Of a stretch of DNA of 64,000 nucleotides, positions 21,670 through 42,935 are shown piece after piece. Every line of letters begins with the position of its first letter. The stretch's first letter is position 1. This DNA is from Mesorhizobium sp. GTDB taxonomy: Bacteria > Pseudomonadota > Alphaproteobacteria > Rhizobiales > Rhizobiaceae. A program made the position numbers and the translations under genes. The stretch lies in NCBI GenBank assembly GCA_004963905.1, contig SUGL01000018.1, forward strand, positions 1-64,000, written 5' to 3'. The notes under the pieces were generated by a model, which made no database searches, was not told the origin of the DNA, and saw nothing but the letters and a program-made list of their open reading frames with translations.

Positions 21670-21984
21670 TCAAACTTCCTTGTTGTCGAAAAGGAACATT
21701 TGAACGCCCGAGTCGTCAGGCGCGTAAATCCGGCGATCCGCCCCGGCAGCTCGTCCCTCCGGGCTTGCGAACGCCTTTTCGAGCGCTGCAAGATCGTCGA
21801 AATACAGCGTTCCGATCCGATGAATGCCAGAGGCCCCCACGGGGGTCGCGATGGGACCGTCGCTAACCTCGTATTTCCGGAGACCCGGAAGCTTCTTGGC
21901 GAGAGGCACGTGGATTTCGAAGTAATGCCGGTCAAACGCCTCGACGTCTTTCGGTGTCGGGTAGATAACGACCATCCGGGCCAT
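21670..21984 (-). CDS. EthD-domain protein
   Basis: 104-aa small ferredoxin-like-fold protein of the EthD/REDY family: MVVIYPTPKDVEAFDRHYFEIHVPLAKKLPGLRKYEV, then a strand-rich C-terminal half with GTLYFDDLAALEKAFASPEGR. Members are dimeric alpha+beta-barrel proteins of often unknown role in degradative clusters. It is on the same strand as the GatZ/kinase pair and 120 bp downstream of it, so it may be part of that transcript. Confidence 0.75.
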   Translation of the reverse strand: MARMVVIYPTPKDVEAFDRHYFEIHVPLAKKLPGLRKYEVSDGPIATPVGASGIHRIGTLYFDDLAALEKAFASPEGRAAGADRRIYAPDDSGVQMFLFDNKEV

Positions 21985-22103
21985 TGCGGTGCTCCTTCTG
22001 TCTCGGACACACCAAGGACGATCCGAAAGATGGAGACGGAACGCGACGCGAAAGATTTTTCTGGAAGCCCGAGGTCGTATGCTTTGCCGGGCGTTGCCCG
22101 GGC

Positions 22104-23390
22104 TTACGGGTTCGTCGCGCTGCGATAAATATCAAGGACACGCGTGACGCTGGCGATCAGAAGCTCATGCGCGGTCGGCTTGATCCGGCCCGCGCCGACC
22201 TCGGCATCGAGATGGGCGAGATACTGGCTGACCAGGGGGCGCGGGATCTCCCGGTCGCCAAGCGCGGCCAGCAGCGCTTCGGTCGCGCGTTGCGCATCGG
22301 GCGACGGCCAGTAGTAGCGGATGCGGTCGCTGAAGGAGAAATGCCGCTGCAGGCGCTGCTCGTCGGGCGTGCCCGGATAATATTTCCGCCAGTTGCCGGG
22401 CGAAGCCAGCATCACGCGCTCCATCGCGTCGGGCAGGCTGTCACGGGTTGGATCGGGCACTAACTGGCCGGCGATGTAGCTCAGTCCGTAGAGCGTCTCG
22501 CGCAGGGCGAAGGTCAGCCAGGGGCCGACCTTGAGGATGGCGAAGCCGTCGCGTACGAGCGCGGCCAGTGCTTCGACCGGCTGATAGTCGGTCGAATGCG
22601 CCTCGAAGACGAATTGCGGTACGCTGTCCAGCGACGCCGCCAGCTTCGTCGCCTTCTCCGGCGCATAGGCAATGATGTCGGCGTTGCCGAATTCGACGCC
22701 GGGCTGGACGACGACGCCGACGGCGCGGGAAAAGGCGGCGTCGAGGCCGAGGCGGGCGAAGGCCTGACGGTGGACTTCGACGGTGCGCAGCGCATCGGCC
22801 GGCTCGGTCACATGCATATGGTCGAGCGCTTCCAGCGCACCGCCCGGAACCGGCACTTCGGTGCCGATGATGTAGACGGGTTTCTGGCCGCCCGCGCGCG
22901 CGACCGCCGCCTCGGCGGCCGCCGCAAGATCGGCCGCTCGCGCGGCGATGGTCTCGTCGGAGAGCACTATGGGATCGTCGGCGCACCCCATGCTGGCGTC
23001 GAGGTGCAGCTTGGTGAAGCCGGCGGAGGCATAGGCGTCGATCATCGCGACAGCCTTCGCCATCGCTTGCGCCGCGGGCAGGTGTTTCCATGGGTTGGGG
23101 CCGAGATGGTCGCCGCCGAGGATCAGCCGGTCGAGCGGAAAGCCGGTGCTGGCGGCATGCACCTCGACGAAAGCGCGAAAAGCAGCCGGCGTCATGCCGG
23201 TATAGCCGCCTTCATGGTTGACCTGATTGCAGGTCGCCTCGATCAGCACATCCGCGCCGTGCGCCGCACCGTGACGGAGCGTCGCTTCGATCACCAGCGG
23301 ATGCGCCGAACAGATCGAGGCGATGCCACCCTTCCCGCCTGCCGTGCGCCAAGCGGCGATGCCTGCAAATCTTGTCGTGGCGCCGGTCAT
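22104..23390 (-). CDS. GatZ/KbaZ-family protein (possible D-tagatose-6-phosphate 4-epimerase)
   Basis: 428-aa member of the tagatose-6-P kinase/aldolase-subunit family (PF08013). Features: GIASICSAHPLVIEATLRHG, LIEATCNQVNHEGGYTGMTP, LILGGDHLGPNPWK and FTKLHLDASMGCADDP. In enterobacteria GatZ/KbaZ are non-catalytic partners of the GatY/KbaY aldolase; no GatY-like gene is present here. In Agrobacterium a homologue paired with a PfkB tagatose kinase was shown to epimerise D-tagatose 6-phosphate to fructose 6-phosphate, and this gene is likewise paired (4-bp overlap) with a PfkB kinase. That role is inferred. Confidence 0.8.
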   Translation of the reverse strand: MTGATTRFAGIAAWRTAGGKGGIASICSAHPLVIEATLRHGAAHGADVLIEATCNQVNHEGGYTGMTPAAFRAFVEVHAASTGFPLDRLILGGDHLGPNPWKHLPAAQAMAKAVAMIDAYASAGFTKLHLDASMGCADDPIVLSDETIAARAADLAAAAEAAVARAGGQKPVYIIGTEVPVPGGALEALDHMHVTEPADALRTVEVHRQAFARLGLDAAFSRAVGVVVQPGVEFGNADIIAYAPEKATKLAASLDSVPQFVFEAHSTDYQPVEALAALVRDGFAILKVGPWLTFALRETLYGLSYIAGQLVPDPTRDSLPDAMERVMLASPGNWRKYYPGTPDEQRLQRHFSFSDRIRYYWPSPDAQRATEALLAALGDREIPRPLVSQYLAHLDAEVGAGRIKPTAHELLIASVTRVLDIYRSATNP

Positions 23391-41035: not shown

Positions 41036-41796
41036 GCGTGGTCGATCACATCCCGCCCGCTGAGGCTATCCTTGCCTGCCAGGGGCTGAGCAAGCATTTC
41101 GGCGGCATCCGCGCCTTCACCGATGTCGGCTTCCAGGCCCGCCGCGGCGAAGTCACCGCCGTGATCGGCGACAACGGCGCCGGCAAGTCGACGCTGATCC
41201 GCTGCCTGGTCGGCGTGCATCAACCCGACGGCGGCACGATCCATTTCGATGGCCGCGAGCATCCGTTCTCCAACCCGGACGAGGCGCGTAAGGCGGGCAT
41301 CGAGACGGTGCACCAGAACCTGGCGCTGATCGATGAACTGACGGTGGCGCAGAACCTCTTCCTCAACCGCGAGATCGTGCGCCGCATCGGCCCCTTCGCC
41401 CTGCTCGACCGTAAGGCGATGAAGGCTGAGGCGCGCGCCATGCTGTCCAGGCTGTCGATCAATGTGCCTTCGGTGACGCAGCGCGTCCGGCGGCTTTCCG
41501 GCGGACAGCGGCAGGCGATCTCGATCTGCCGCGCCGCCGGCTCCGGCGCCAAGCTGGTGGTGATGGACGAGCCGACGGCGGCGCTCGGCGTGCAGGAGAC
41601 GGCGAATGTCGAGGCACTGATCCGACGCTTACGCGAGCAAGGGGTGAGCGTCATCCTGATCAGCCACAATTTCGATCAGGTGCGGCGCCTCTCCGACCAG
41701 ATCTGGGTGATGCGCGCCGGCAGGATGGTGGCGACCGTGCGCGCGTCCGAAACCAGCGGCAACGAGCTCGTGGCACTGGTGACCGGAGCGGTGTGA
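41032..41796 (+). CDS. CUT2 sugar ABC importer ATPase, single domain
   Basis: 254-aa ATPase with Walker A GDNGAGKST, Q-loop VHQNLALIDELTV, signature LSGGQRQAISICRAAG and Walker B LVVMDEPTAALG. Most CUT2 ATPases (RbsA) have two fused ABC domains of ~500 aa; this one has a single domain like FrcA of rhizobia, so it would act as a homodimer. The gene overlaps the permease by 4 bp. Confidence 0.88.
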   Translation: MSVVDHIPPAEAILACQGLSKHFGGIRAFTDVGFQARRGEVTAVIGDNGAGKSTLIRCLVGVHQPDGGTIHFDGREHPFSNPDEARKAGIETVHQNLALIDELTVAQNLFLNREIVRRIGPFALLDRKAMKAEARAMLSRLSINVPSVTQRVRRLSGGQRQAISICRAAGSGAKLVVMDEPTAALGVQETANVEALIRRLREQGVSVILISHNFDQVRRLSDQIWVMRAGRMVATVRASETSGNELVALVTGAV

Positions 41797-41849
41797 CGCG
41801 TCGCTCCGGACTGGAGTTTGGCAGACAATCGCATTGAAAGGAATGTGCC

Positions 41850-42935
41850 ATGGCGCTGATCCGTGTCGGGCTTGTTGGTCTCGGAGAGGTCGCGCAGTCG
41901 ATCCATCTGCCGGTGCTGGCGGACCAGCGCGATCGCTGGGTGGTCGCCGGCGTCCATGATGTTTCACCCAGCCTGGTGAAACTCGTCACATCCGAATATG
42001 CGACCGCCAGGGCATATGAGAGCGCGGAGGCGCTGATTAATTCGCCCGACATCGACGCGGTCTTCGTACTGTCCTCGGACGACACGCACAGCCGTTTCGT
42101 CCGCGCCGCGATCGCAGCCAACAAGCATATCCTGCTCGAAAAACCCGCCTGCCTGACGGTGCGCGAGATCGACGAGTTGCTGGCGCTGAGCAAGGACTAC
42201 GGCAAGACGATTTTCGTCGGCTACATGCGCCGCTACGCGCCGGCCTATCTGGCGGCAAGGCAGGAGATGCCGGCGCATGGCGACATCACCCATGTGCGCA
42301 TCTTCGACCTGATCTCGGAGGGCCGGCATTTCCTGAAGAAAAGCCAGAAGATCCTCTACCCCACCGACATCGACCCGGCGATCCTTTCGCGCGGCGCCAA
42401 GGAGCGCGACGCGCTGATCCGCGAAGTGGTGGGCGAGAATGCCTCGACCGACCTGGTGCGCGCCTATCGCGGCCTCACCGCCCTTTCCTCGCACCACATC
42501 TCGGCCATGCGCGGCCTGCTCGGCGAGCCGAAGCGCGTGGTGGCGGCGCACCGCACCAATGGCGGCGCCAACACGAGCGTGACCTTCGACTACGGCCATT
42601 TCGCCTGCCTCTATGACGCGGTGGTCGACGATCTCGGCCTGTTCGACGCCATGATCGAGGTGCGCTCGAACACCAGGCGGGTGCGCGTCATCTACGACAC
42701 GCCCTATATCCGCAGCCTGCCGACGCGGCTGGAGGTGACGGAAGCCGGCCCGCTCGGCCCGGTGACGAAGGCGCTCGGGCCGCTCTATGGCGACGCCTTC
42801 TCCAACGAGCTCGAGATTTTCCACCGTCACATCATGGAGGGCACGAAGCCGCTAACCGATCTCGCCGACTCGCGCCGCGATCTGGCGCTGATGGCCGAGA
42901 TCATCGAGCGGATGAAGGAGAGCGGCGGGAACTGA
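41850..42935 (+). CDS. Gfo/Idh/MocA-family oxidoreductase (third of three)
   Basis: 361-aa dehydrogenase. Rossmann motif VGLVGLGEVAQSIHLPVL and EKP motif ILLEKPACLTVREID; the segment VGYMRRYAPAYLAARQEM follows. It differs from the other two Gfo/Idh proteins in the region after the EKP motif. AAAGGAATG ribosome-binding site before ATG 41850. Its last 35 bp overlap the convergent gene 42901-43458. Confidence 0.87.
   Translation: MALIRVGLVGLGEVAQSIHLPVLADQRDRWVVAGVHDVSPSLVKLVTSEYATARAYESAEALINSPDIDAVFVLSSDDTHSRFVRAAIAANKHILLEKPACLTVREIDELLALSKDYGKTIFVGYMRRYAPAYLAARQEMPAHGDITHVRIFDLISEGRHFLKKSQKILYPTDIDPAILSRGAKERDALIREVVGENASTDLVRAYRGLTALSSHHISAMRGLLGEPKRVVAAHRTNGGANTSVTFDYGHFACLYDAVVDDLGLFDAMIEVRSNTRRVRVIYDTPYIRSLPTRLEVTEAGPLGPVTKALGPLYGDAFSNELEIFHRHIMEGTKPLTDLADSRRDLALMAEIIERMKESGGN

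Follow-up and report, generated by a model that had tools for sequence, protein, structure and literature searches.

A modular carbohydrate gene cluster of Mesorhizobium under a predicted LacI-type regulator

The window considered here is a stretch of 64,000 nucleotides from Mesorhizobium sp. (GenBank assembly GCA_004963905.1, contig SUGL01000018.1, positions 1 to 64,000), part of a 7.06 Mb genome whose near relatives at this locus are Mesorhizobium. Within it, 22104-42935 is filled by 20 intact open reading frames, designated genes A-T (Table 1), which form a carbohydrate gene cluster that includes one LacI-family regulator gene. A first-pass annotation had announced about 20 carbohydrate genes of named families in this region, and family scans of all 20 genes returned these families at or near the same places, including the CUT2 importer with its single-domain ATPase. 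It had let the region begin at 21670, where we find an EthD-domain gene that no evidence ties to the system. Gene spacing suggests that B-A and D run leftward and C rightward, that E-P form a single long unit, in which no gap exceeds 110 bp and many genes overlap by 1-4 bp, and that Q-T form a second unit, beginning after a 480-bp gap. Judged by eye, B probably starts some 72 nt downstream of its listed TTG, at about 24334.

Table 1. Genes and predicted operators of the cluster, with the EthD-domain gene to its left in the last row.
Feature	Assignment	Position	Strand	Basis
A	GatZ/KbaZ family, read as D-tagatose-6-phosphate 4-epimerase (predicted)	22104..23390	-	TIGR02810
B	PfkB kinase, tagatose-kinase type	23387..24406	-	NF049991
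B|C site	weak operator-like site between B and C	24415..24429	+	B|C spacer scan
C	LacI-family regulator	24564..25586	+	family scans
D	Gfo/Idh/MocA dehydrogenase	25636..26847	-	family scans and PDB matches
D|E site	predicted LacI operator TTGACGCGCGTAAAA between D and E	26879..26893	+	spacer comparison and pattern scans
E	DhnA/DeoC-type (DeoC/LacD-type) class I aldolase	26977..27777	+	family scans
F	PfkB-family sugar kinase	27781..28731	+	family scans
G	UgpC/MsmK-type ATPase	28821..29966	+	UgpC model 450 bits, cut-off 432
H	CUT1 substrate-binding protein	30077..31324	+	family scan and PDB matches
I	CUT1 permease	31412..32353	+	family scans
J	CUT1 permease	32359..33201	+	family scans
K	IolE-like AP_endonuc_2 TIM barrel, predicted keto-sugar lyase/dehydratase	33281..34102	+	sequence and fold matches
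L	Gfo/Idh/MocA dehydrogenase, best PDB match DgpA	34105..35181	+	family scan and PDB match
M	AP_endonuc_2 TIM barrel, YcjR / ketose-3-epimerase fold class	35181..35999	+	sequence and fold matches
N	alpha/beta hydrolase (esterase/lactonase)	35999..36817	+	family scans
O	divergent Rpe-family ketose-phosphate 3-epimerase	36814..37536	+	family scans
P	ROK sugar kinase	37536..38567	+	family scan
P|Q site	predicted LacI operator TTGACGCATGTCAAA upstream of Q	38825..38839	+	pattern scans; kept in 28/28 panel genomes with Q
Q	CUT2 binding protein, D-allose/D-ribose type	39048..40031	+	family scan and PDB matches
R	CUT2 permease	40028..41035	+	family scans
S	single-domain CUT2 ATPase, 254 aa	41032..41796	+	family scans
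T	Gfo/Idh/MocA dehydrogenase	41850..42935	+	family scans
EthD gene	EthD-domain gene, nothing ties its product to the A-T system	21670-21984	-	family scan

Comparison of related loci showed the system to be a modular assembly around a core best read as keto-sugar chemistry, not one invention or an invariant pathway. This core, X, consists of the LacI-type regulator C, the dehydrogenase D and K-L-M-N-O-P. A cassette Y carries the aldolase, a kinase and the CUT1 importer (E-J), usually with its own DeoR-type regulator, while A-B (tagatose kinase/epimerase) and Q-T (CUT2) are add-on modules. The comparison covered 54 Mesorhizobium-type loci, in which most stretches end near O; for P and Q-T, other stretches were used. 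The order A-B (where present), C, D, E-F-G-H-I-J-K-L-M-N-O is found in 47 of the 54 loci (30 with A-B and 17 without it in the fetched stretch); the remainder are three loci with C, D, E-J, K, O and P that lack L-M-N, two with Q-T before E, and two cut by a contig end. Y stands directly behind D in 51/54 loci. A DeoR-type regulator gene directed away from E lies immediately before E in 40/54 loci and is absent from 14/54, and an esterase gene, abh2, adjoins D in 45/54 and is found on further stretches in the two genomes with Q before E; neither gene is present in the window. In three Mesorhizobium loci (L016, L023 and L034), O follows K almost directly, with 13-14 bp between the matches including the stop codon, so that L-M-N behaves as a removable unit.

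The modules also occur in other arrangements. R. tumorigenes carries X without Y, in the order C, abh2, D, an own CUT1 importer, K-L-M-N-O-P and UgpC, with E-F not found in the fetched stretch. Two genomes (G033 and G040) share the order C, abh2, D, operator, K-P, operator, Q-T, DeoR, E-J, and in another (G043) D and K-P precede E-J, with DeoR ahead of E. On the opposite side of C, E-J is found in Rhizobium WYJ-E13 and Pararhizobium A13, and at least E-H in Sinorhizobium B11. Loci of Jiella, Martelella and Palleronia hold abh2, D, K, E-J and, where found, C, with no L-M-N-O-P in the stretch, and L-M-N (with or without O and P) adjoins CUT2 importers in Aureimonas, Agrobacterium and M. jarvisii plasmids. 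No plasmid match to Q was found at E<=1e-60.

Of the 13 panel genomes with K but not E, 10 encode between D and K a CUT1 binding protein of X's own, 75-77% identical to the R. tumorigenes protein; as for the other three, G034 has none there, G015 is without D and CUT1 in the fetched stretch, and G042 ends there. This protein was found neither in the window at 1e-5 nor, at E<=1e-40, in 96 loci (61 with E, 56 of which also have D and K). Y stands where Y-less genomes keep the CUT1 importer of X; most simply, Y would have replaced that importer, and the Y importer would feed the X pathway. In L123 and L132, a UgpC-type ATPase gene separates P from Q and may be left over from the CUT1 importer of X. 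As proteins, E and J show unusually slow change: across families and orders (L009 and L062-L066 vs window 26977-33201), E is 87-88% and J 82-89% identical, vs 55-65% for F, D and K.

Linkage was counted in a panel of 121 genomes, 73 of them of the genus (inferred from the 49 genera in the tally), with E-value thresholds of 1e-80 for E and K, 1e-70 for O, 1e-100 for Q and 1e-150 for A. E is present in 36 genomes, K in 49, O in 51, Q in 28 and A in 30. K accompanies E in 36/36 genomes (Fisher 3e-20; within the genus 3e-10) and Q in 28/28 (Fisher 2e-14; within the genus 3e-7), p-values that overstate the linkage as the panel genomes are related. The arrangement is not due to chance, because E and K lie 6.2-12.9 kb apart in all 36 genomes with E, and the co-occurrence of E and Q with K disfavours a chance adjacency of unrelated operons. 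The first-pass annotation had proposed a single system, which is supported as a multi-gene system under one regulator but not as an invariant one: besides the DeoR gene of Y, K occurs without E in 13/49 genomes and without Q in 21/49. In 14/28 genomes, Q is no more than 12 kb from K; in 13 it sits on a different contig or at a distance of over 2 Mb, and in one (G001) a contig end intervenes. For the 13 unlinked genomes, no P was found within the 2.1-3.0 kb that precede Q. Genomes with A have K in 22/30 cases and within 20 kb in 20/30, and eight of the 10 others lack K. The blocks being apart in most relatives, which would have spoken against a single system, is not what we find for X and Y; it is for about half of Q-T, which keeps its operator there.

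The spacers between D and E and between P and Q share a long similar stretch. A first pattern, TTKACGCRYGYMAAA, was drawn from these two sites of the window, and later tests used TTGACGCRYGWMAAA. Exact matches to TTKACGCRYGYMAAA in the 7.06 Mb are only its two source sites, hence no independent test; the independent evidence for an operator is its recurrence in other genomes, at loci that are related by descent. In 69 of 76 loci, TTGACGCRYGWMAAA occurs upstream of D with up to two mismatches. It is missing from R. johnstonii 3841 (L008), Palleronia (L009), L062, and three Jiella loci and Martelella (L063-L066); most of these seven carry a TTGAC...GTAAA-like element in its place. C was found in five of these seven and is only 48-60% identical to C of the window; its recognition helix and hinge differ in L009, L062, L064 and L066 (in L064, SRPTLAKYF and LSSK vs SRPTLSKFF and LNRKR in the window), and 3841 nearly keeps both. 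Upstream of Q, the site is present with up to two mismatches in all 28 panel genomes with Q (the window and 27 others), 27 of them with no more than a single mismatch and L121 with two. Because it is kept in 28/28, including the 13 genomes in which Q is unlinked from X, Q-T is a predicted member of the regulon, linked or not. The weaker site between B and C reaches p<=0.05 by plain shuffles in 33/35 spacers, a mild test on related loci. A near-palindromic operator is thus predicted to be shared by the target promoters, as for a LacI-type regulon, and these predicted sites at D|E, P|Q and, more weakly, B|C support the earlier proposal of one LacI-type regulator.

The Gfo/Idh/MocA dehydrogenases and TIM barrels are best read as keto-sugar chemistry, in agreement with the first-pass suggestion of processing through a keto-sugar. 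K has an AP_endonuc_2-type TIM-barrel fold, as described for 3-keto-glycoside beta-eliminases (AtOGE / BT1 lyase type). Its fold neighbours include IolE and 3-keto-glucoside 1,2-lyases, those of M include YcjR (the top Foldseek match of M) and ketose 3-epimerases, and both have AtHYD among them. The metal/catalytic His pair of the eliminases is His132 and His134 in AtOGE; in an alignment of K against the lyase 8tct (not AtOGE), H149 aligns with a His of the lyase and H153 with a further His, but the residue two positions after H149 is Ser. The PDB matches of D also list DgpA. O as a housekeeping Rpe was rejected, as two better-scoring copies are encoded elsewhere in the genome. A sulfoquinovose reading would start from SmoF, the best PDB match of H at only 70 bits.

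For the A-B module, A scores 628 bits against the GatZ/KbaZ family model TIGR02810, over the cut-off of 569, which places it in the family; it is the sole PF08013 match in the genome, and no GatY partner was found among the 20 genes scanned. B falls slightly below the cut-off of the tagatose kinase model NF049991 (415 vs 420 bits). In the Agrobacterium galactitol/D-altritol pathways, the GatZ-family enzyme has a tagatose kinase as its partner.

The enzyme kinds are known, in a combination for which we found no description in the literature (most subscription journals lay beyond the scope of the search), and the cluster is a real modular regulon. With its Gfo/Idh dehydrogenases, TIM barrels, importer and LacI gene it resembles lgdA-B1-B2-C and ycjQRS, and in its enzymes the AtOGE operon. 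The levoglucosan cluster lgdA-B1-B2-C of Bacillus smithii shares a LacI regulator, genes for a sugar ABC importer, a pair of dehydrogenases (lgdC being annotated as Gfo/Idh/MocA) and a pair of 'sugar phosphate isomerases' (PMC7676230, available part). However, the available part of that source names no PfkB, aldolase, tagatose or CUT2 modules for lgd, and D and L score only 70 and 79 bits against the levoglucosan dehydrogenase model (LgdA; cut-off 650). The GlycDH/AtOGE glycoside operon of A. tumefaciens performs oxidation, elimination, hydration and reduction and encodes two 'sugar phosphate isomerases/epimerases' (PMC10628242, available part). It belongs to the Rhizobium/Agrobacterium group as well, and its hydratase AtHYD (8ro4) is the neighbour of K and M mentioned above; however, its first step is carried out by a flavoenzyme, that part of the source names no aldolase, and AtOGE (8BVK) is absent from the sequence-match lists of K and M. 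The E. coli ycj cluster (YcjQ-R-S) shares an ABC importer, two sugar dehydrogenases, a predicted LacI-type repressor and one 3-keto-glucoside isomerase/epimerase, YcjR (PMC11543891, available part). It differs in its phosphorylases and phosphoglucomutase, as described there, whereas ROK, Rpe-type, aldolase and tagatose genes are found here. GatZ epimerase activity interconverts fructose-6-P and tagatose-6-P in the Agrobacterium galactitol/D-altritol pathways (Wichelecki 2015, as summarised in PMC11907403, available part), which A resembles as a GatZ-family enzyme; in contrast to those pathways, Pfam places none of the 20 genes here in the usual SDR/MDR polyol dehydrogenase families. In R. johnstonii 3841, the 'putative aldolase' pRL120027, which we infer from gene order to be the orthologue of E, is listed as NE in both columns of an insertion-sequencing table (PMC5118466, available part).

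We consider it reasonably probable that A-T form one LacI-controlled catabolic regulon assembled from modules, with the keto-sugar core X joined by Y, A-B and Q-T. Computation establishes the gene content, the modularity and the shared operator, and there is good support for the regulon with its modular construction; the reactions are a model, in which every step and the substrate are predicted. Judging from the sequence, C would repress at the 15-bp operator at B|C, at D|E and upstream of Q. Core X would process a sugar or glycoside via a keto intermediate: D would oxidise a ring hydroxyl, K, as a metal-type TIM barrel, would catalyse enolisation and then elimination of the neighbouring substituent, and M may add or move groups as a hydratase, epimerase or isomerase. 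The ketone would be reduced by L and/or T, and N may remove an acyl or lactone group. P would then phosphorylate the sugar, and O would epimerise the ketose phosphate, most simply to fructose-6-phosphate. In Mesorhizobium, the Y importer G-J would stand in for X's own importer, and a second product would be split by the kinase F and aldolase E of Y. B and A would convert D-tagatose to fructose-6-phosphate, and Q-R-S may import a free D-allose-type hexose. A bolder version, which we think quite improbable, is that the LacI regulon serves to rewrite plant-glycoside stereochemistry. Here, D would oxidise C3 of the bound hexose, K would free the aglycone, L or T would reduce the ketone to its C3 epimer, D-allose, M would yield D-allulose, P would phosphorylate it and O would form fructose-6-phosphate, without RpiB. 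Internal 3-keto-glucose and external allose (via Q-R-S) would enter the same route, a released ketose would leave via F-E or B-A, and importers would be swapped behind one fixed operator.

Several observations weigh against one regulon with a keto-sugar core. The own DeoR of Y in 40/54 loci means that E-J may answer to another inducer, and in these DeoR-bearing relatives K-P is probably read from the E promoter, where the LacI operator may not control K-P. Within the genus, the linkage of A-B is weak (K in 22/28 genomes with A vs 27/45 without, p 0.08). Operator counts in this genome alone prove nothing: one-mismatch matches to TTKACGCRYGYMAAA number 12 genome-wide vs 11 for a reversed control, and matches with up to two mismatches in the window number five vs a shuffle mean of 2.0, with five reached in 8/100 shuffles. 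As for the chemistry, the fold neighbours of K and M are only 10-24% identical across a large superfamily, YcjR ranks only 32nd by Z for M (23.5, with a protein of unknown role at the top with 25.6), and two residues past the strand-5 His, K has a Ser where 8tct has a His.

One alternative is two or more independent sugar operons that merely adjoin each other and have no common substrate, with Y serving a ketose, X a glycoside, Q-T allose and A-B tagatose. We regard this as unlikely, while noting that it would explain the own DeoR of Y, the occurrence of X without E-F in R. tumorigenes and 13 panel genomes, the unlinked copies of Q, and an E-F pair in a 17-kb locus of an actinomycete metagenome-assembled genome (L069), where no X or importer genes were detected. 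It fits poorly with Y being found in the panel only together with K, despite its shifting position (following D, T or P, or adjoining C), with K directly behind J in most Mesorhizobium loci, and with the operator that Q keeps even in trans.

Two further routes would each explain a part of the cluster. A cyclitol (inositol-like) route, to which we give a small probability, would use D as an inositol-type dehydrogenase, K as an inosose-type dehydratase, the alpha/beta hydrolase for IolD, an IolC-like F and the aldolase E. IolE is the best PDB relative of K by sequence, a scyllo-inositol dehydrogenase with L-glucose dehydrogenase activity is that of D, F has weak IolC_N similarity, and the Jiella, Martelella and Palleronia loci keep D, K, E-J and abh2 but not L-M-N-O-P. 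However, K reaches only 61 or 80 bits against the NCBIfam IolE model (cut-off 290) and two matches over the cut-off sit on another contig, for which an orthologous inositol pathway was rejected, and L, M, O, P, A, B and the allose-type Q are left without a role. The E. coli D-allose operon combines an allose-type binding protein, an Rpe-type epimerase and a ROK kinase, and O and P belong to the families of AlsE and AlsK; the best PDB matches of Q are D-allose-binding proteins (165-172 bits), but against the equivalog model Q scores 195 bits, with a cut-off of 335. A pathway of this type (AlsBAC-AlsE-AlsK) with extra genes nevertheless seems hardly probable, and the module match drawn in the first-pass annotation fails on RpiB: PF02502 has no match in a genome scored 100% complete, while the same search matches in 7/14 controls, and no RpiB/LacAB homologue was found. 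P scores 233 bits against a ROK glucokinase model vs 105 against allose kinase, Q is missing from many genomes with K, and Q-T is split from X in 13 of the 28 genomes with Q.

Just left of the cluster, 18045-21602 encodes an AsnC-type regulator, an MFS transporter and an anhydro-N-acetylmuramic acid kinase, and at 49710-54351 lie the genes of an ABC importer of the branched-chain amino acid type, with two ATPases, two permeases and a binding protein. Aromatic catabolism genes of the 4-hydroxyphenylacetate/homoprotocatechuate type (HpaB, aldehyde dehydrogenase, LigB dioxygenase and FAA hydrolase) occupy 996-8788, beside which a one-mismatch copy of the operator pattern (TTGACCCATGTCAAA, 5727-5741) is probably due to chance. 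A foreign island by composition was rejected, with a GC content of 0.59-0.71 per kb over 18-47 kb and no step. Rfam gave no match at gathering score over 20000-45000, and thus no support for an RNA element, while predicted terminators (12 vs 12.1 in shuffles) and sigma-70 promoters (5 vs 2.7) were uninformative.

The cluster is a clear case of the formation of a rhizobial catabolic 'supercluster', in which importer and enzyme cassettes are acquired, exchanged and discarded around a constant core of repressor and operator. Cassette Y usually brings its own regulator, which is lacking in some strains, and the Q-T importer module keeps its operator when it lies elsewhere in the genome. This makes the hunt for the substrate practical, as the regulon is defined, the inducer is expected to be common to importers of two classes, and the outlets are distinct.

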